Positions 595 through 8,290 of a stretch of DNA of 8,290 bases are shown here, in pieces. Source of the stretch: an uncultured Selenomonadales bacterium (lineage in GTDB: Bacteria; Bacillota_C; Negativicutes; Selenomonadales; Selenomonadaceae); contig CAMYWI010000046.1 of assembly GCA_947302675.1 (NCBI GenBank), positions 1 to 8,290 on the forward strand. Direction: 5' to 3'. The notes below the pieces were generated by a model. It was not told where the DNA came from. It did no database searches and saw only the letters and a program-made list of their open reading frames with translations. A program made the translations under genes and the position numbers. Every line of letters starts with the position of its first letter. Positions within the stretch are counted from its first letter, which is position 1.

Positions 595-3500
595 TCAATG
601 GGTTGAGCGCGTGCCTTTTTCAAATAAATTTTTTAACTGTTCGCCTATGTGGTCAAGATCCGCTTGCAGTGTCAAAATTTCCAGTTCCGCGCCGCGACTT
701 TCTTGTATTTTATTTCCTGCCGTCGCCTTGCGAGTTTCCGCTACCAAAACGGCTTTGGCATTCACGCCGAATTTTTTTGTCAGCCCAAACAATTTGAAGT
801 AACTTTCTTGACGCAACTGATTTTGCGCTTTGCACTCCACTATCAACATTTGAAAGCCGCGTGTAAGTACGCAGTCAAACTCATTGTTTATATCCTTATC
901 GCTCCAATGCGGCTCAAAATTCGTCACGACATCATCGAAGTAGCCCGTCTTTTTCGCCGAGCGGTACACGTAAATTTCCAGCATCTTGCCGTCGTTCGTC
1001 AGCAAGTCCTTTATTTCGCGCGTCGCATAAGTAAACCGCACGTCTGGCGGATTTTTTATGTCCAAGTTTCTAAGGTAGTGCTTTTCCTCCAAGTACTTGA
1101 GCAAGCCGCAGATTGACTCATAGGGGACTTGGCTTAAGTTTGTTAAATTCAAGCCAGTTACCGCCAAGTCGTCAAACGTCATTGCCAACTGTTTCATTTT
1201 CGGCACAAAGCCTATTGCCTCAGGCAATATCAGTTTGTACGGTTCAGAAAAAATTTTTTCGTAAGCGGCTTTATTCTTGCAGTAATCGATTATCACGACT
1301 TCGCACGCCGTCGAGTTGTAAGGCTGAACGCGGCTGTGAGAATCCGCCACTTCCTCCATTATCAAGGTGTCGAGAATTTTTTCCACGCCCTTGAAACAAA
1401 ACGTCGGCAACAAATATGTGTACTTCTTGAGCGAATCCTTTGCCTCTCGCGAAAAGAAAGTAACGACGTCATTTGCCTCTCTGTGACTTTTCAAGCGTTC
1501 ACAAAGTTTTTTCCAGGTGCGCCTGTCGTTTTCCTTATACTTCGCCCACAACTCCGCGTAGTCTTCGACAAAAGTCGGTTGCTCGCCAATTTTACCGAAC
1601 GAATTATTCAAAGCTGTCAGGTCGTTCACCGTTATGTAATTTTTTTTTCCGATGTAGCCAAAGCTATCGCAGTCCTTTATCGAGACGAACTTCATTTGCT
1701 CCGAATCGAATCTGTAAGTAGGATATTCGGCGTAACTCTTTGCGCCTTGCAACCAATTCGATATTTTTCCGCTGTTGAGTTCCAATGCCAGTCGTTCTTC
1801 GGGACGATTTTTCTTTAGCCGCCGCAGTTCATTTTGAATTTCTTTAACGACTTCGCAAGCGGGATTGTCGATTGATTTAATAATCTTAAAGCGAACTTGA
1901 CGGATTTTTCCCTGCCCGACCGATTTAAATTTTCGAGTTTCTGCGCGAGCAGTTATGCTCTTGTCGCCCGAAGTTATCATGAATTCGAGTTTAGCGCGAA
2001 ATTTTTTGCGCGACGTGTACGCCAGGATTTTTTGAACACTTTCCTTTAAATTCTCCAACTCCGCCGCGTCCTTGCAAAAGGCGAAGTAAATTATTCTTTT
2101 GGGATTTATCACTGTGGCGGCGGCGACGTTTTCAAACAGAGCCGCCGTCTCGCCCGCGCAGAAAGGAATTGCCAAGCTGATATTTTCCGAGTAGGTCAGT
2201 ATGAACGGGATCTTTTCTACCATTGCCGCATCGTCCTGCTTGTATTCCCTGTACTCCATGCTCAGCAAAATCGGGCGAATTTTTTCTTCCAAGATTTTGA
2301 AATTCTCTTTGATAACGTCGCGCGTGTTCGTCGGCAACTGATTGACTTTCTCCAAAAACGTCTCACTCAAATTTTTATACAGACGAACTTTTTTATCGTC
2401 GCCATTCATTATGTCCTTAAAGCCGACCTTCAACTCTTGAAAACTCATCAGTATTCCCACGTTGAACGTCAGCTTGGTTTGGATATTTTCAAAAAGTTTC
2501 TCTATAAGATCCGGCTCGCGCCGCGCCTTTTCCGCCGCCGCTACGAAAACTTTATGGAGCTTAACCGATAACCTGTCGAGTTCGTCAAGTTCCGCGAGTT
2601 CACTCTTTGTCAAAGTCGCCCATTGTGCCGATGGATATTTTTCAAGGAGCAACCTGTCGGGGCGACTTTTTACTATGCACACGTGCGTTTTAGTTTTTTC
2701 GTCTTTAGTTTGACCGTCGGCGCATTCCTCGACAGGGCGATGACGATAGCCCTTACAGAGTTTCTCGACAACCCAACGTTTATGTTCGCTGTAAATAAAA
2801 TCGTTCTTGCGGCTCTCGTCGAAACTCAACTCCGAAAATTTCTGCGCGACCTCCGCCTCAGTCTTCTTAGCAAGATCCAAGTCCAAGTCGTGCAACTTGT
2901 ACTTTATCGCTATAACCGCCGCGATACACGCCTCGTGATTGTAAGGCTTGAGATAATCTTTCCTCAACGCCTCGTAGTCCGTGTTCAAATTTTTTTCCCA
3001 GACCAAATGCACGTTGAAGGCTCGCCTTTCAATTTCGGCGTGAGCGGCGTAATTCTTCACGTCTTCATTAACGAATATTGGCGTCGCGAACTTCAACTTC
3101 TTAGCTTTACTCGCCGCCGATTCGCGAATGTAATTCAAGCCCGCCTTGCAGTTCATGTTTTCCAGAGCTTTCTTGCAAGCGGTTGTAGCTTTCTCGTTCT
3201 TAGCGTCCTCGCCAAAGTCTATCAGCACATAATCGGGCTTTCCCGATATCTCCGTAAAAAATTCTACCAAATCTTCTTTGGTCGGCTCGACTATCAGCGT
3301 ATCGAAGAAAATTTTCCCGTAACTTTCCGGCGTGTCTCCGTGCCCGTTGATGTTGAAAAAATTTTCCAGTTCCGGTCGCTTGCTCAGATATTCTTCGACG
3401 ACGGTTTCATTTTGGGTAAAAACTTTCACCGTTAACTTTTGCTTGAGCACCTGCCCAACTTGCAAACAGCTGTCCAAAAAATACGAACTGTGTTTGCCGA

Positions 3501-3633
3501 ACCCCAACAGAATTACATTAAGTTCTTCCGCATTATCGGTCGCGTACTCGTAAAGCGGATTGCTGTAAAGGTGATACTGCATCACCATTTGCGAATTTTT
3601 CTCCGCGTTTCGCCTTGAGGATTTTTTATTCAA
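595..3633 (-). CDS. Rossmann / RyR-like / CARF-like protein with C-terminal PD-(D/E)xK nuclease (DUF1887/Card1-like)
   Basis: The protein has 1012 residues. Residues about 36-200 look like a Rossmann domain, with a hydrophobic strand running into the loop GFGKHS (44-49). Residues about 275-365 resemble a RyR domain: EHKRWVVEKLCKGY, then a KTH motif at 315-317 and a following D/L-rich helix. Residues about 510-672 read as a CARF-like fold: strand RIIYFAF, helix, and a late strand ending ALELNSGK where CARF proteins have a TGGTK-type loop. The C-terminus carries a PD-(D/E)xK nuclease: E886 in MLEIYVY, D920 in NNEFD, E933 and K935 in IVECK, matching the DUF1887 domain of Card1/Can2, which cut nucleic acid when a cyclic oligoadenylate binds CARF. 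The TTG start at 3633 is chosen because AAGGGAGG lies 7 nt upstream and it overlaps the helicase stop by 4 bp. No signal peptide or membrane segment is visible. Inferred role: ligand-activated effector nuclease of a defence operon. The nuclease call is firm, CARF-like and RyR moderate. Confidence 0.85.
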   Translation of the reverse strand: MNKKSSRRNAEKNSQMVMQYHLYSNPLYEYATDNAEELNVILLGFGKHSSYFLDSCLQVGQVLKQKLTVKVFTQNETVVEEYLSKRPELENFFNINGHGDTPESYGKIFFDTLIVEPTKEDLVEFFTEISGKPDYVLIDFGEDAKNEKATTACKKALENMNCKAGLNYIRESAASKAKKLKFATPIFVNEDVKNYAAHAEIERRAFNVHLVWEKNLNTDYEALRKDYLKPYNHEACIAAVIAIKYKLHDLDLDLAKKTEAEVAQKFSELSFDESRKNDFIYSEHKRWVVEKLCKGYRHRPVEECADGQTKDEKTKTHVCIVKSRPDRLLLEKYPSAQWATLTKSELAELDELDRLSVKLHKVFVAAAEKARREPDLIEKLFENIQTKLTFNVGILMSFQELKVGFKDIMNGDDKKVRLYKNLSETFLEKVNQLPTNTRDVIKENFKILEEKIRPILLSMEYREYKQDDAAMVEKIPFILTYSENISLAIPFCAGETAALFENVAAATVINPKRIIYFAFCKDAAELENLKESVQKILAYTSRKKFRAKLEFMITSGDKSITARAETRKFKSVGQGKIRQVRFKIIKSIDNPACEVVKEIQNELRRLKKNRPEERLALELNSGKISNWLQGAKSYAEYPTYRFDSEQMKFVSIKDCDSFGYIGKKNYITVNDLTALNNSFGKIGEQPTFVEDYAELWAKYKENDRRTWKKLCERLKSHREANDVVTFFSREAKDSLKKYTYLLPTFCFKGVEKILDTLIMEEVADSHSRVQPYNSTACEVVIIDYCKNKAAYEKIFSEPYKLILPEAIGFVPKMKQLAMTFDDLAVTGLNLTNLSQVPYESICGLLKYLEEKHYLRNLDIKNPPDVRFTYATREIKDLLTNDGKMLEIYVYRSAKKTGYFDDVVTNFEPHWSDKDINNEFDCVLTRGFQMLIVECKAQNQLRQESYFKLFGLTKKFGVNAKAVLVAETRKATAGNKIQESRGAELEILTLQADLDHIGEQLKNLFEKGTRSTH
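634..996 (-). other. PD-(D/E)xK nuclease domain (DUF1887/Card1-like)
   Basis: This covers residues about 880-1000 of the 1012-residue protein. The ordered motifs are DGKMLEIYVY (E886), a short spacer, NNEFDCV (D920), then LIVECKA (E933, K935) and a following helix with YFKLFGL. This is the layout of the Card1/Can2 nuclease domain, in which the same acidic residues and lysine bind metal and catalyse cleavage. All expected catalytic positions are present, so the domain looks active. Confidence 0.8.
1618..2106 (-). other. CARF-like ligand-sensing domain with altered TGGTK loop
   Basis: This covers residues about 510-672 of the nuclease protein. A hydrophobic strand (RIIYFAF, 513-519) is followed by a helix, further strands and LALELNSGK (615-623; NSGK is encoded at 1765..1776). 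In CARF domains the equivalent strand usually ends in TGGTK and contacts the cyclic nucleotide. The segment after it (YRFDSEQMKFVSI, then YITVNDLTALN) resembles the linker that joins CARF to the DUF1887 nuclease. The altered loop suggests a different ligand or loss of binding. The call rests on position and secondary-structure pattern rather than strong identity. Confidence 0.5.
2539..2811 (-). other. RyR-like domain
   Basis: This covers residues about 275-365 of the nuclease protein. The pattern H284, W287, K291, G295-Y296, then DEKTKTH (311-317) and a Leu/Glu/Asp-rich helix (ELAELDELDRLS) follows the RyR repeat, whose signature is HxxW, an aromatic glycine turn, a K-x-H strand and a terminal acidic helix. 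Prokaryotic RyR domains have been proposed to bind nucleotide-derived ligands in conflict systems. The role here is inferred. Confidence 0.55.
3034..3528 (-). other. N-terminal Rossmann-like (TrkA-N-type) domain
   Basis: This covers residues about 36-200 of the nuclease protein. The strand LNVILLGFGKHS leads into a Gly-containing loop and helix, followed by strands KLTVKVFT, KIFFDTLIV and DYVLIDFGED. This alternation of strand and helix is Rossmann-like. The glycine loop is GxGxxS rather than a full GxGxxG, so nucleotide binding is possible but not certain. Its position in front of a RyR-like domain fits the TrkA-N plus RyR pairing known in some prokaryotic proteins. Confidence 0.5.
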
Positions 3634-6600
3634 GTCTTCGCCTCCCTTAAATTATCGCGCACAAGTTTTATAAATTTTGCGGCGGTCTCGCTTAACGTCT
3701 CCGCCGTCAATGCTGTTTCGTAGTCGTGCCCTTTCCGAAAGTAAGCGCAGTGTTTTTTGCCCGGCAAATGCAGGAACCATAAGCGCGATTCTTCTATCTT
3801 CGGCAGTTCGGCGAGCCGTTCGGTAATGGCGGTGAATTCATTGTTGCACGGGTCAGAGGCTTCGTTGTAAGTCGGGTCGTCGAGCACCAAGAAAAATTCG
3901 CTGTCCTTATAATATTTCCCATTTCTATCTGCGCCGCCCTGCCCCTGCAATAAATTATGCGCTGTAGGATATTCGTCGTAGAAAATTTTTTCCTCTGGAA
4001 AAGCGGCTTTAAGCTCATCTACGAATTTATCCAATAGATCCAGTCCGTCCGAGTCGGTTGAGTAAGAGACGCCTATTAAAAATTTTTCGTCGCGTTTCAT
4101 TTGCAGGAAGGGCTTTATTTTGTTCGGCACGTCCACATTGAATTTTTTTGTAGTTTCAATATGGCTTAAACTTTCGACCGCATGTTCGGGATTGCCGCCC
4201 CACTCGCGGAAGTTACTTTCCGAATCGAAAATCGCGAATGTCTTGTTGTAGCCCGTTATCGAAACACGTGGTTTCTGTCCCGTCTTTTTTAGGTAGGCGC
4301 AGAACGTTTTCAAGCTATCCATTTTTTGCGCCATGTTCCAATCGAGATATATGAGATAAAAATTTTCTCGAACGTTTTCCGAGTAAAGCCCTTCGCCCCA
4401 ACTCACAACGCGATAGGATATTTTTTGCCGTTTCAAATGTTCAAGGAGTTCGTTATAGGCAACGTGATTGCGCTTGTCGCAAACTATCCGCAAAGTCGGC
4501 AGGTCAGGCGAGCCTTCCAAGTAGTCTTTGACTTCCGTGATCTCGTAATTTTTCAACATCATTCCCATTGTGCTAAGTGAAATTGGCGGGAAGTTTTCCG
4601 CCACGTCCCACAACAACGAGGTCAGTGCGCGTGCGTCGGTGTCCTTTACCTTGATTGCTTGCACCAGCAAATACGCAAATTGCTTGAACGTTATCGCCAC
4701 GCTTACATTTTCCAACAGCACTTCGCCCGCCGCGTCTTGAAATTTTCCAAGTCGGTTGCGCCATTGTACTCGCGAAAATTTTCCTTCTGTGCTCACCACC
4801 AAGATTATTCGTCTGTTGGGTGAAGGATTTTTTTCAAGCCATCGCCTGTATCTTTGAAAATCGACCTTCGACTCCTCTTTGTCATTGTAAGCTATGAATG
4901 TAAAAATTTTCTCGCCGCTCGTCACTTGCAAAAAATTTTCGTCTTCAAAAATCGGCACGCTGAATTCAATCGCGCCTTTAAAGACCGGCTCCTCTGCGGG
5001 GCTGAAAAGATTTGTAAGCGGCTGCAGGAGATTCGCGGAGTTTTCGTTCGTGTTGGTATCGTAAAGATTTTGTATTGCAGTGTACGCGCTCTCGCTGAGG
5101 TTGCTTTCAGTCCTTATCGTCTCCAAGAGTATATCGTAGCTGTCGTGGAGCGTGGACTCTTCCAAGCGCAGGATTATTTCCTTGCGTTCTTCTTCACTTA
5201 TAATTTTTCTTATCTCCGCCAAGTCGCGCTCGTTGCTCATGAGCAACATTTGTTCGGGACTTTCATAGCGCAGTTTTTTACTTTCCCACAGCTTGCCGAG
5301 TTTTAATATCGTACGCCTGTCGAGTGTGCGAACATGTTTGTTGGCTATCACGACCAAATTTCGCGGCATCCCGTAATTTACGCAAGTCGAAAACCTGTAA
5401 ATGTCGCCGGAATTTAGTTTCTCAAACCCTGCGTGTTGCGCCACGATCAAACAATTACTTATCGCCTCCAAAAGATATGCGACGGTCTCGGCTATTCTTG
5501 CAATGTCTTCTTGAACTATCGCTATGGTCGCAAAGCGGAATCCCGTCTCGCGTCTTATCTCTGATAAATCGTAGCCTTTCGTCCAGTACCATAACAATAT
5601 TGCTCGCAAAAGATGTTTCTTGTCTTCGCGCTCATTCGTCCATTGATAATCCGAAGAAAGCATGTTTGCTATCGGGCTATCCTCCCAAAGTTGGCAGTCA
5701 CCCGACTCAACCATCCGCCGCAACGTCTTTTCTATTGTCGTGCAGACTTTTCGATAGTTATCGTACTGATTCGGTTGCGGTATTTCCAACTGACCTATTC
5801 GCTCAATCTCCGGCGTACAGCACAATCTGTAAAGAATATCCAGTGAATATTTTTCCAGGTCATCGGCAGTCGCATTTGTCGGCAAGCCGCCTTCGCCGCG
5901 ACGTTTCTTCTTAATACCTAATTTTTTCTTCATGTAAAGATGATTATAAAAATATCTTCTTATCAGCTTACAAGTTTCCAAATGCAAAGCGTAGGGCGAA
6001 ATGTTTTCTCCAAATTCATTGAGGCGATAATAAACTTCCTCCTCTTCGTCAAGGTCGAAGTAGTCGTCATCATTTTCCATTTCGCACAGCTTAGCTTTCA
6101 CAAGTGCCGCGCAGATTTTTTTTGTGTCAAACTTTCGCGCCGAGCACTTCTGCGCAAAACTTTCCTTCAACAGCTGCTCAAAATTTTCGAGCGTGAATCT
6201 TTTCCGCCCGAATCTCCGCAACAAATTTAAATAGTATGGAGCTTGATTTTCTTCTTCCACGTTCGCCAACGCCGATTTTATTTCTTCCGCTCGATAGTAG
6301 ACATAGTTATCCCAAAAATAATTGCCCTTTTGCCCGTCTTCGGCGAAGATATAACTTTCGCCCGTATTTTTGCTCCTGTTCCCCAAACGACCTGCGCGCC
6401 CGACGAAATTCTTATACTCTTGATTCGTCAGCGACACTCGCCCTTCAAAGCGCGTCGTCTGCGAGTCGTAAAGTATCATGACATCTACTGGCATATTCAT
6501 TCCTATCGTGAGCGTTTCCTTCGCTACGACCAATCTAAGCGGGTCTTCGTTGTCGCAAAATAATTCTTCTATTAACTCGCGCAACGGATACGACAGTGAC

Positions 6601-7760
6601 GCATTATGAAAGGCAATTCTGCGCGGCAACAATTTTTCCCGCAAGATTTTTGTGTAGTCGTCCTCGTCGAATTCTTCAATACGTTTCATGCGCTCCGACA
6701 TTTCTTCTACAGGCAATAATCCTTCCGAAGCGACGAATTCAGCAACCCGACGAGTTCCGCGCCGCCCGTTCACGTAGACAAGAACCTTTGCATTAGGATT
6801 TTCTCTGTAGATTTTCAACAGCAAAGCTTTCAGCAAGGCGTTTTTCTTGTCGCCCTCGCGATTTCGTAATGCCGCAGTAACTTTCAATTCACCCGACGAT
6901 TGCTCTTCCCCGTCTTGCAACTTTTTATCGCTATTCTCCCCGTAAGTATGACGCACCCGATATTTACCGTTTAATTCTATCACGTGCTCGGAAAGTCCCG
7001 CAGGTCGCGCGTTGCTCTGAATTAAAATCGGCTTGAGTCCCTTTTCCGTTCCGTCGTCAACGGTCAACCATTTTTCTATCTGCCCAACTTTGCAATCGCA
7101 GGTCGTCAAGCACATGATTCGCGTCTTGAGGTCTTTGTTATCGAGTTTGTTGTTTTCCAAAACTTTTTGTATCGCTATCTCCAATTTTGGACCGCGCTCC
7201 TGGCTGTTCAGCATTTGCAATTCGTCAACAACCAAAAGTGCGCAGTCGTTTAGCATGGGAATATCTTTGCCGTTAGTTGCCTTGAATTGAGACTGCGACA
7301 GCATTGCAAAAAATTTTTCATAGACAATTACCGCGACTTCAAAATCTCCTTGAATTATTTCGCCGTCGTGATCTTGAAAGTCACTGCTGGAGGCATATAC
7401 TTTTTCTATTCCTTGTGCGCTAAAATCTTCGCGCAGTTGGTCATGCCTTTCGCGAACCATTGCCCGCAACGGCACGAGCACCAAGCTTTTCTTGTTCCCG
7501 TTTTTCAAGCTGTCGAGTATCGCCAACTCGCTAACCAAAGTTTTACCGGAACTCGTTGCGCCTTGAATTATGACATGGCGAATTGAATTCTTTTGCGACA
7601 GCCAAAAACCTTCCCTATTGAAGGCGGCATTTTGCAGTGCCGTAAATTTTACTTCGCTCGGCTCAATGTTCATTGACTCTGATAACCGCTTATTTATGTT
7701 TTGCAATGTGTCTCGGCTGAGCTGAAATTTTTCTACTATGTCTTCAAAATTTCTTATCAA
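3630..7760 (-). CDS. Ski2/Hel308-like SF2 helicase with C-terminal TIR domain
   Basis: The protein has 1376 residues. Helicase motifs occur in order: I GATSSGKT (67-74), Ia LVPLRAM (95-101), II DELQ (179-182), III-like CLTTC (217-221), IV VLVYVNGRRGT (326-336), AFHNASL (383-389), V ETLTIGMNMPVD (415-426) and VI FVGRAGRLG (452-460). The MLNSQERG after motif II and the AFHNASL and GMNMP motifs point to the Ski2/Hel308/PolQ branch. A winged helix follows (about 540-600), ending in YYRLNEFGENIS, with a basic patch at 611-621. Residues about 715-840 are helical and resemble the upstream gene product. Residues about 935-1205 are alpha/beta and not recognised. The C-terminus (about 1222-1340) is a TIR domain with E1308 in the catalytic position. 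The TTG start is chosen for GGAGG 9 nt upstream and the TTGA overlap with the preceding stop. Inferred role: nucleic-acid sensing coupled to NAD+ cleavage or signal production. Helicase call firm, TIR good. Confidence 0.9.
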   Translation of the reverse strand: MIRNFEDIVEKFQLSRDTLQNINKRLSESMNIEPSEVKFTALQNAAFNREGFWLSQKNSIRHVIIQGATSSGKTLVSELAILDSLKNGNKKSLVLVPLRAMVRERHDQLREDFSAQGIEKVYASSSDFQDHDGEIIQGDFEVAVIVYEKFFAMLSQSQFKATNGKDIPMLNDCALLVVDELQMLNSQERGPKLEIAIQKVLENNKLDNKDLKTRIMCLTTCDCKVGQIEKWLTVDDGTEKGLKPILIQSNARPAGLSEHVIELNGKYRVRHTYGENSDKKLQDGEEQSSGELKVTAALRNREGDKKNALLKALLLKIYRENPNAKVLVYVNGRRGTRRVAEFVASEGLLPVEEMSERMKRIEEFDEDDYTKILREKLLPRRIAFHNASLSYPLRELIEELFCDNEDPLRLVVAKETLTIGMNMPVDVMILYDSQTTRFEGRVSLTNQEYKNFVGRAGRLGNRSKNTGESYIFAEDGQKGNYFWDNYVYYRAEEIKSALANVEEENQAPYYLNLLRRFGRKRFTLENFEQLLKESFAQKCSARKFDTKKICAALVKAKLCEMENDDDYFDLDEEEEVYYRLNEFGENISPYALHLETCKLIRRYFYNHLYMKKKLGIKKKRRGEGGLPTNATADDLEKYSLDILYRLCCTPEIERIGQLEIPQPNQYDNYRKVCTTIEKTLRRMVESGDCQLWEDSPIANMLSSDYQWTNEREDKKHLLRAILLWYWTKGYDLSEIRRETGFRFATIAIVQEDIARIAETVAYLLEAISNCLIVAQHAGFEKLNSGDIYRFSTCVNYGMPRNLVVIANKHVRTLDRRTILKLGKLWESKKLRYESPEQMLLMSNERDLAEIRKIISEEERKEIILRLEESTLHDSYDILLETIRTESNLSESAYTAIQNLYDTNTNENSANLLQPLTNLFSPAEEPVFKGAIEFSVPIFEDENFLQVTSGEKIFTFIAYNDKEESKVDFQRYRRWLEKNPSPNRRIILVVSTEGKFSRVQWRNRLGKFQDAAGEVLLENVSVAITFKQFAYLLVQAIKVKDTDARALTSLLWDVAENFPPISLSTMGMMLKNYEITEVKDYLEGSPDLPTLRIVCDKRNHVAYNELLEHLKRQKISYRVVSWGEGLYSENVRENFYLIYLDWNMAQKMDSLKTFCAYLKKTGQKPRVSITGYNKTFAIFDSESNFREWGGNPEHAVESLSHIETTKKFNVDVPNKIKPFLQMKRDEKFLIGVSYSTDSDGLDLLDKFVDELKAAFPEEKIFYDEYPTAHNLLQGQGGADRNGKYYKDSEFFLVLDDPTYNEASDPCNNEFTAITERLAELPKIEESRLWFLHLPGKKHCAYFRKGHDYETALTAETLSETAAKFIKLVRDNLREAKT
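3641..3648 (-). promoter_or_regulatory. Ribosome binding site of the nuclease gene
   Basis: On the minus strand, AAGGGAGG lies 7 nt before the TTG at 3633..3631. It sits inside the last codons of the helicase gene, whose TGA overlaps the TTG as TTGA (3633..3630). This supports the TTG start and suggests translational coupling. Confidence 0.8.
3741..4097 (-). other. TIR domain (putative NADase or signalling enzyme)
   Basis: This covers residues about 1222-1340 of the helicase. The first strand FLIGVSYS and helix DLLDKFVDEL are followed by KIFYDEY, a glycine-containing loop, YYKDSEFFLVLDDPTY and DPCNNEFTAI. This follows the bacterial TIR order of strand A, helix A, strand B, the Y-x-x-S strand D and the C-x-x-E helix. 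E1308 (codon 3837..3839) is at the position of the catalytic glutamate of TIR NADases. The domain is C-terminal, so it is likely controlled by the helicase. Confidence 0.7.
4146..4958 (-). other. Uncharacterised alpha/beta region between helicase and TIR domain
   Basis: This covers residues about 935-1205 of the helicase. Two strand-helix-strand units are visible: the first runs from KIFTFIAYND through RRIILVVSTEG to VSVAITFKQF, the second from LRIVCDKRN through ISYRVVSWGE and FYLIYLDWN to TFAIFDS. Both look Rossmann- or TIR-like in outline, but no catalytic motif is recognisable. They may be degenerate TIR-like or ligand-binding modules. I do not recognise a family. Confidence 0.4.
7539..7562 (-). 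other. Helicase motif I (Walker A)
   Basis: The codons spell GATSSGKT, the ATP-binding P-loop of the helicase (residues 67-74). Together with DELQ at 7215..7226 and FVGRAGRLG within 6381..6422, it shows that the ATPase site is intact. Confidence 0.9.
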
Positions 7761-8290
7761 AACATTTTTCCTCCAAAATTCTTTTTGAATGCCTCACGCC
7801 AACTCGGCGTCCATTTCTCTGATTCCTTCGCCAAAAGTTTTATCTCCTCCAAAGTTTCAGGCGTCTTTTCTGGCGAACAAAGAAGTTTGTACAATCGCTC
7901 CACTTTCCACAAACACTGCGCCTTGTACAAATCGCAATGACTTATGCCAAGAAAATCGCAAAACTCCTTCGATGGATAATACATCATTTTATTGATGATC
8001 CGCGTCATGCGTTCGGCGATTTCGTCTGTCCTTTCGACGCCGAGACTTTGCCTTAACGTCTGCCCCTTTTCTCGCGCCGGTGCTAACGGCAATGCAAAGC
8101 GCATTATTTCCACACGATAACTTACCGACTCAACCATGCGGTGTAAGGTCTCGTAATAAATTTTGAAACCGTCATACAATCTGCGCGGCGAACAATTCCT
8201 GCCTCTGTACCACAGCAAAATCGACGCCAAAATACGGTATTGCTTGAAATTTTCGTCCCCATAAACCTCGACCGCTTTGTTTTTGTCCAA
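7757..8290 (-). CDS. C-terminal part of a protein resembling the helical module of the neighbouring helicase (5' end outside the window)
   Basis: The frame is open to the right edge. The first visible codon is TTG, but nothing shows that it is a start, and the sequence reads as the interior of a longer protein. The visible 177 residues are mostly helical and carry no catalytic motif. They align by eye with residues about 715-840 of the downstream helicase: RILASILLWYRG against HLLRAILLWYWT; MVESVSYRVEIM against IAETVAYLLEAI; a strand-like NKMMYYPSKE against CVNYGMPRN; LCSPEKTPE against YESPEQM. This suggests a second Ski2-like helicase, or a protein sharing its post-core module. It is the first visible gene of the operon and overlaps the helicase start by 4 bp. 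Function cannot be stated from this fragment; a role with the helicase is inferred from coupling and similarity. Confidence 0.75.
   Translation of the reverse strand: MDKNKAVEVYGDENFKQYRILASILLWYRGRNCSPRRLYDGFKIYYETLHRMVESVSYRVEIMRFALPLAPAREKGQTLRQSLGVERTDEIAERMTRIINKMMYYPSKEFCDFLGISHCDLYKAQCLWKVERLYKLLCSPEKTPETLEEIKLLAKESEKWTPSWREAFKKNFGGKMF
7770..7774 (-). promoter_or_regulatory. Ribosome binding site of the helicase gene
   Basis: On the minus strand GGAGG lies 9 nt before the TTG at 7760..7758, within the final codons of the upstream gene. A closer ATG (7765..7763) is in the upstream gene's frame and runs into its stop after one codon, so it is not the start. The TTG overlaps the upstream TGA as TTGA. 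Confidence 0.75.
7841..8242 (-). other. Helical module shared with the downstream helicase
   Basis: The boundaries, given from 5' to 3' on the minus strand, cover visible residues 17-150 of the partial upstream gene. The counterpart in the helicase lies at 5241..5618. The shared landmarks are ILLWY, an ESVSY/ETVAY helix and a SPE(K/Q) turn. In Ski2-like helicases the region after the winged helix is a helical bundle that contacts nucleic acid; whether this module plays that part is inference. Confidence 0.5.

Follow-up and report, generated by a model that had tools for sequence, protein, structure and literature searches.

The window, as we call the whole stretch of DNA analysed here, spans 8,290 nucleotides (positions 1-8,290 of contig CAMYWI010000046.1, assembly GCA_947302675.1) and comes from an uncultured Selenomonadales bacterium (Selenomonadaceae), a gut-type bacterium. 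Its minus strand carries three genes, for a putative helicase (helicase A), a helicase fused to a TIR domain (helicase-TIR) and a nuclease with several ligand-type domains. We think it quite probable that this operon is a Thoeris-like TIR-signalling anti-phage system with a two-helicase sensor. Its features are as follows.

7757..8290, minus strand: gene 1, helicase A (helA); C-terminal 177 amino acids, in a frame open at the window edge with the 5' part beyond the window
7757..7760, minus strand: helA/helicase-TIR stop/start overlap, 4 bp, TTGA
3630..7760, minus strand: gene 2, helicase-TIR protein, 1376 amino acids
6201..7613, minus strand: helicase core of helicase-TIR, approximately residues 50-520 (Pfam DEAD 61-207, Helicase_C 363-460)
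3648..4085, minus strand: TIR domain, residues 1226-1371, with predicted catalytic Glu1308
3630..3633, minus strand: helicase-TIR/nuclease stop/start overlap, 4 bp, TTGA
595..3633, minus strand: gene 3, Rossmann-RyR-CARF-nuclease effector, 1012 amino acids
3049..3528, minus strand: N-terminal TrkA/RCK-like Rossmann domain, approximately residues 36-195
2554..2817, minus strand: RyR domain, approximately residues 273-360 (H284, W287, H317, D350), located by hhalign profile comparison
1654..2184, minus strand: CARF-like domain, approximately residues 484-660, aligned by VIA-align to the CARF domains of Cdn1, VC1899, Can2, Card1, Csm6 and Cad1
619..993, minus strand: PD-(D/E)xK nuclease domain, approximately residues 881-1005 (D920, E933, K935; PF09002)

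An earlier note on this DNA had described three minus-strand genes joined by 4-bp overlaps, and the reading frames agree with it. At both junctions a TTG start lies over a TGA stop, and a Shine-Dalgarno-like GGAGG/GGGAGG sequence is found just upstream of each; translation of the three genes is therefore probably coupled.

The helicase part of gene 2 matched Pfam DEAD (65 bits) and Helicase_C (28 bits), and its Walker lysine, DE and motif VI arginines were kept in every one of 121 relatives with a residue at those positions. Its family match was Hel308, and the closest solved structures were those of Hel308, Ski2 and HamB (HamB structure 8vx9, E 5e-10). In PADLOC, HamB profiles were matched at E 2.5e-26 and PDC-M23B was best by E-value (4e-31), the latter match being confined to the helicase core (57-544). 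A family profile of the protein retrieved 507 database proteins at E ≤ 0.001. Pfam TIR models matched none of six helicase-TIR alignment members. Foldseek also gave no match to the C-terminus at E ≤ 0.001 (the best, at 5.5e-3, being TIR domains and DNPH1); the TIR assignment rests on VIA-align Z scores from structure comparison, in which the SPARTA TIR was the top fold match. Between the helicase and TIR parts, residues from about 850 to 1225 received no domain assignment. By these means the fusion of a Ski2-like helicase to a TIR domain, as the earlier note had it, was borne out. The database proteins P0108-P0185 form a large divergent helicase-TIR branch, mostly at about 30% identity, in which the TIR motif is more classical.

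The note had also called gene 1 helicase-like. By itself, the 177-amino-acid piece in the window matched no Pfam, PADLOC or NCBIfam model. Proteins of about 730-840 amino acids at loci L072, L073, L074 and L076 matched both this piece (E 9.5e-21 to 4.9e-40) and the helicase-TIR protein, and the two that were scanned, those of L072 and L073, carry Pfam DEAD and Helicase_C. Judged by these longer relatives, gene 1 most likely encodes another Hel308/HamB-like helicase, one that lacks a TIR domain. Close to helicase A, a conserved 277-amino-acid Ala/Gly-rich protein is encoded at L072 (8847-9677), L073 (4149-4979) and L076 (5563-6393); the L072 copy had a weak PADLOC PDC-M72B match (E 2e-6).

The nuclease was modelled with a predicted local distance difference test score of 91.6 and a predicted template modelling score of 0.88 (model m25f96cc5587b), and the best fold matches of this model include Can2, Card1 and Cdn1. 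A sequence search of the PDB gave no match at E ≤ 1. Pfam Card1_endonuc (PF09002) scored 34 bits against a cut-off of 26.4, the PADLOC model matched was CARF_PDDEXK, and the order of a CARF domain followed by a PD-(D/E)xK domain with a D...ExK motif is that of the Card1/Can2 nucleases. We found 64 relatives in the database and 53 genome loci; catalytic residues were computed to be intact in most of the family. The family differs from the Card1, Can2, Cdn1 and VC1899 CARF nucleases in its added N-terminal Rossmann and RyR domains, its TIR neighbours and, often, a fused kinase.

Pfam's own RyR model did not match the window nuclease and was matched weakly by two of ten alignment members (best E 0.027); it was profile comparison that recovered both the family match and the ligand residues. 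With hhalign, nuclease segment 225-400 matched a profile of 19 stand-alone RyR proteins from the neighbourhoods of nuclease genes at P 3e-6 (whole protein, 3.5e-5), against 0.24-0.48 for five column shuffles; one of the 19 (at L072) was confirmed as PF02026 by Pfam. Together with the Pfam match over cut-off for the nuclease domain and the VIA-align result for the CARF domain, this upholds the Rossmann-RyR-CARF-like nuclease of the earlier note. Residues H284, W287, H317 and D350 were invariant in all 58 aligned nuclease sequences, and position 353 was D in 54 and E in four. According to a 2026 preprint (PMC13232231), phage PF02026 proteins bind or cleave 2'/3'cADPR (ADPR, ADP-ribose; cADPR, its cyclic form) through H75, W78, H100 and D117. 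The spacing of H-x-x-W in the nuclease (H284/W287) is the same as in the RyR proteins described there, and the second His and the Asp of the ligand pocket of the phage RyDEP proteins are likewise kept; the nuclease differs in that its RyR domain belongs to a host effector rather than to phage counter-defence, and in its longer residue spacing. RyDEP itself acts as a glycosidase by means of H75 and D117 (PMC13232231), for which possible counterparts, a His and an Asp, are present in the nuclease. One could accordingly imagine that the RyR domain degrades the TIR signal as a built-in off-switch, and that the CARF pocket, which is also present, is the real sensor for a different ligand. This seems to us quite unlikely: in the preprint, six of eight tested homologues bound signals and none but the founding protein was found to cleave, and no cyclic-oligonucleotide synthetase appeared among the nuclease neighbours scanned by Pfam, which were part of all neighbours.

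The pairing of helicase-TIR with the nuclease is conserved in other genomes. Among 189 genomes of the family to which the genome of locus L001 belongs, helicase-TIR occurred in five and the nuclease in eight, with co-occurrence in five of five; the pairing is beyond chance (Fisher p 3e-8), in genomes that are related to one another. Class-wide (380 genomes), helicase-TIR was found in the same five genomes only, a patchy distribution. At L001 the two genes are joined by the same 4-bp overlap, and at L072 and L073 genes run in one direction in the order c2 (truncated at the contig end in L073), kinase-nuclease, 277-amino-acid protein, RyR, helicase A and helicase-TIR. In genomes G072 and G097 the nuclease and helicase-TIR lie on separate contigs, both G097 genes being cut by contig ends. 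Three pairs of nuclease and helicase-TIR homologues have equal values for the longest contig of their source (9,992; 28,995; 25,989), which suggests further linked cases.

Elsewhere, searches for helicase-TIR gave a single positive among 299 genomes of the family that includes L004 (this led to locus L080) and two among 102 relatives of G341 (L088 being the second). The order that includes L011 (345 genomes) and the family that includes L016 (148 genomes) had none. Viral contigs yielded no confirmed helicase-TIR, and a plasmid search at an E limit of 1e-30 returned two Hymenobacter helicases alone, matching the core only. Nuclease relatives were not confirmed in viral contigs by pattern scans, whose reach is limited, and gave no match in plasmids or phages at E 1e-5.

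Genes for TIR proteins were concentrated around the nuclease family. In 49 nuclease-bearing genomes (approximately 129 Mb), TIR_2 had 165 matches; 38 of the 150 listed lay less than 10 kb from one of 56 nuclease places, against an expectation of at most 1.4, and these were spread over 22 genomes. The control family N6_Mtase had 179 matches, and two of the 150 listed, both on one contig, lay within that distance (expected at most 1.6). A mere defence-island effect as the source of TIR proximity was rejected at the level of this control. The 49 genomes represent 49 of the 53 loci (L022, L038, L039 and L046 were excluded, for one shared genome and three small contigs); the 56 places are about one per locus with fragment rows excluded, genome sizes were rounded, and the loci are partly related (L032, L047 and L049, for example, are near-identical) rather than fully independent, so that p-values are only a guide.

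The TIR neighbours were of many kinds: TIR-NB-ARC-TPR and TIR-Sel1 (L031), TIR-NPHP3-TPR-RyR (L042), TIR (L044), TIR-TPR (L053) and TIR-NACHT (L050; NACHT slightly under its cut-off), with others at L018 and L052. At L010 a double-TIR protein and, beside it, a TIR-VWA fusion (3469-4602) are encoded shortly before c2 and the kinase-nuclease. L014 has a DUF4062-TPR neighbour (DUF4062 slightly under its cut-off). No helicase-TIR was found in the loci with these other kinds of TIR protein. The nuclease frame at L050 (4162-7930) is in three pieces and the copy looks broken; RyR and TIR-NACHT genes lie downstream.

These surroundings bear on what activates the nuclease. Since its best folds include the cA4-activated Can2, Card1 and Cdn1, it could be a type III CRISPR ancillary effector activated by cyclic oligoadenylate, the adjacent TIR helicase being incidental. 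We find this barely credible: TIR linkage is far over chance, no Cas family occurred among the neighbours scanned by Pfam or among ten flanking genes of L072 and L073, and weak PADLOC Cas3 matches fell on the helicases.

The helicase pair also occurs with a different effector. At L080 and L088, two genomes reached via a metagenome-assembled genome of Lachnospiraceae, the gene after helicase A and helicase-TIR encodes not the nuclease but a Thoeris Macro-domain (ThsA TM-Macro) protein of 298-300 amino acids. The L080 protein matched PF20016 (120.6 bits) and PADLOC ThsA (E 2e-56); the L088 protein matched that of L080 at E 4e-157, and its gene has a 4-bp overlap with helicase-TIR. No nuclease relatives were found in the stretches examined around the two loci, and a plasmid search with the L080 Macro protein gave no relative at an E limit of 1e-10. 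With the Macro protein here and the nuclease elsewhere, the helicase pair adjoins at least two kinds of effector.

This exchange matters for two further explanations. In a Hachiman-like scheme of direct control, the helicases would keep the nuclease bound in a complex until they meet damaged or foreign DNA, and the TIR domain would be a second, NAD-depleting killer, as in SPARTA, with no signal involved. HamB is among the closest helicases, the best fold match is to the SPARTA TIR and the genes overlap tightly; yet the partner nuclease has no HamA match and carries three ligand-type domains, the same helicase pair stands beside a ThsA Macro protein, an effector known to receive signals, and nuclease relatives adjoin TIR proteins of other kinds in loci where no helicase-TIR was found. 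We consider such direct control unlikely. The other explanation lies outside defence. Hel308 is a family of repair helicases, and the helicase match to it would suit a module in which a Hel308-like pair responds to DNA damage or stress; the patchy distribution (five of 380 genomes of the class), the replacement of the nuclease by a defence effector and the presence of TIR partners like those that serve in immunity make such a module highly improbable.

Many nuclease loci carry what may be a second layer of control. A Ser/Thr kinase was fused to the nuclease or encoded directly upstream in 45 of the 53 loci, and a conserved gene, c2, lay upstream in 36 of these 45 and in none of the eight kinase-free loci. 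PP2C was upstream of the nuclease in 28 of 53 loci, and a stand-alone RyR gene lay within two genes downstream in 15 of 53. A cassette of c2, PP2C phosphatase (about 237 amino acids) and kinase-Rossmann-RyR-CARF-nuclease, often with 4-bp overlaps, recurred at L002, L005, L007, L017, L020, L042 and others; it is possibly a kinase-gated form of the same effector. The c2 proteins (about 560-850 amino acids) had no Pfam match over cut-off among those scanned, in most tests. In a nuclease tree the kinase-free clade of the window is nested within kinase-bearing branches, so the kinase was probably lost there; some nearby branch supports are low. The tree input excluded six of the 64 database relatives and weak or short genome rows, and of its 111 rows one was removed for coverage and six as near-duplicates, leaving 104. 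At L047, where a stand-alone RyR gene lies on the downstream side of the kinase-nuclease, the next gene after it encodes a cREC_REC (cyclic-phosphate-processing receiver) protein (13102-13404). In the window, a convergent LRR_5 (BspA-type leucine-rich repeat) gene on the plus strand (2-592) ends 2 bp from the nuclease stop, and LRR_5 genes are also found near the nuclease at L009 (3209-6376) and L036 (9308-12043).

In the mechanism that we propose, the two Hel308/HamB-like helicases would bind foreign nucleic acid or move along it. This would free the TIR domain at the C-terminus of the second helicase, and that domain would use Glu1308 to convert NAD+ to an ADP-ribose-type signal. This signal would bind the RyR domain of the nuclease, perhaps with the Rossmann or CARF pockets, and the Card1/Can2-type PD-(D/E)xK domain would then cut nucleic acid and stop infection. 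Activation by a TIR-made ADPR-type molecule is what we infer from the RyR pocket residues and the TIR linkage. The earlier note had suggested that the TIR domain makes a signal read by the partner; at the level of sequence comparison that model is supported by the enrichment of TIR genes beside the nuclease family, the exchange with ThsA and the invariant RyR ligand residues.

Several observations weigh against this interpretation. The window helicase-TIR has K414 (motif ATETLTIG) where 120 of 121 relatives have Thr and the remaining one a gap, and it has nine extra residues at 1160-1168 that occur in none of the 121; a database copy 98-99% identical to it (P0065) has neither. Because of these two private features the window copy may be impaired or misassembled, as a variant allele or through an assembly fault. 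The ExK residues of the nuclease are not universal (E933 in 50 of 58 sequences and K935 in 48, with D920 in 52). Three of the eight nuclease-bearing genomes in the family of L001's genome have no helicase-TIR, and 27 of the 49 nuclease genomes had no listed TIR_2 match within 10 kb, a count affected by the 150 of 165 matches listed, by many short contigs and by helicase-fused TIR domains that Pfam misses. It is uncertain whether D350 or D353 is the counterpart of D117 in the RyR domain, and the second His is found in none of the 19 stand-alone RyR neighbours, in which H-x-x-W and the D-R motif are kept. Type II Thoeris TM-Macro effectors (PMC11204291, PMC12948488) read TIR products that are ADPR/IAD or His-ADPR, not cADPR; the helicase-TIR product may therefore not be the same molecule as the RyR ligand described in the preprint. 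Lastly, phosphorylation may be the main trigger at kinase-bearing loci, given how many of the nuclease loci have a kinase (45 of 53) and how many of those have c2 (36).

Among named systems, Thoeris is like the window in that a TIR enzyme gene, here a putative TIR-domain signal producer in the role of ThsB, adjoins an effector with nucleotide-sensing domains, and a ThsA-type Macro effector is present at L080 and L088. It differs in that the window carries its TIR domain on a Hel308-like helicase, which has a further helicase as its partner, and the effector is a Rossmann-RyR-CARF nuclease rather than SIR2-SLOG or TM-Macro; because a ThsA effector is found only at L080 and L088, the window is Thoeris-like and not Thoeris. 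Hachiman shares a Ski2/HamB-like superfamily 2 helicase beside a nuclease, whereas no HamA (DUF1837-type) was among the PADLOC or Pfam matches of the nuclease, and the window adds a TIR domain, two helicases and sensor domains on the nuclease. The earlier note knew of no named system with this combination, and in PADLOC only separate parts were matched (HamB/PDC-M23B for the helicase, CARF_PDDEXK for the nuclease). Computational work by Burroughs and colleagues in 2015 is said to have linked prokaryotic RyR, TIR and SLOG domains; a description of the helicase-TIR and RyR-CARF-nuclease gene set was not found in the open-licence literature, and the portion of PMC9503650 available does not mention RyR.

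Together, the results depict what looks like a variant of TIR-signalling anti-phage systems whose helicase part serves alongside more than one kind of killing protein. We advance tentatively, and at a little under an even chance, a wider proposal: that the physiological receptor for a cyclic-ADPR-like immune signal made by TIR is a bacterial RyR domain, which gates a Card1-type nuclease; that the signal would come from a portable two-helicase-TIR sensor with exchangeable effectors, the RyR-CARF nuclease here and TM-Macro ThsA elsewhere; and that the RyR-nuclease would in turn serve many TIR sensors (NB-ARC, NACHT, TPR, VWA and helicase), with a second control layer provided by the fused kinase and PP2C phosphatase. 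If true, a nucleic-acid-sensing helicase pair would join the known triggers of bacterial TIR domains, a CARF nuclease would operate outside CRISPR under a TIR signal, and one sensor should drive two different effectors, so that effector exchange offers a direct test. Bacterial RyR domains would then be host-side receptors for ADPR-type signals, and the old question of cADPR action on ryanodine receptors would become testable in a simple system.

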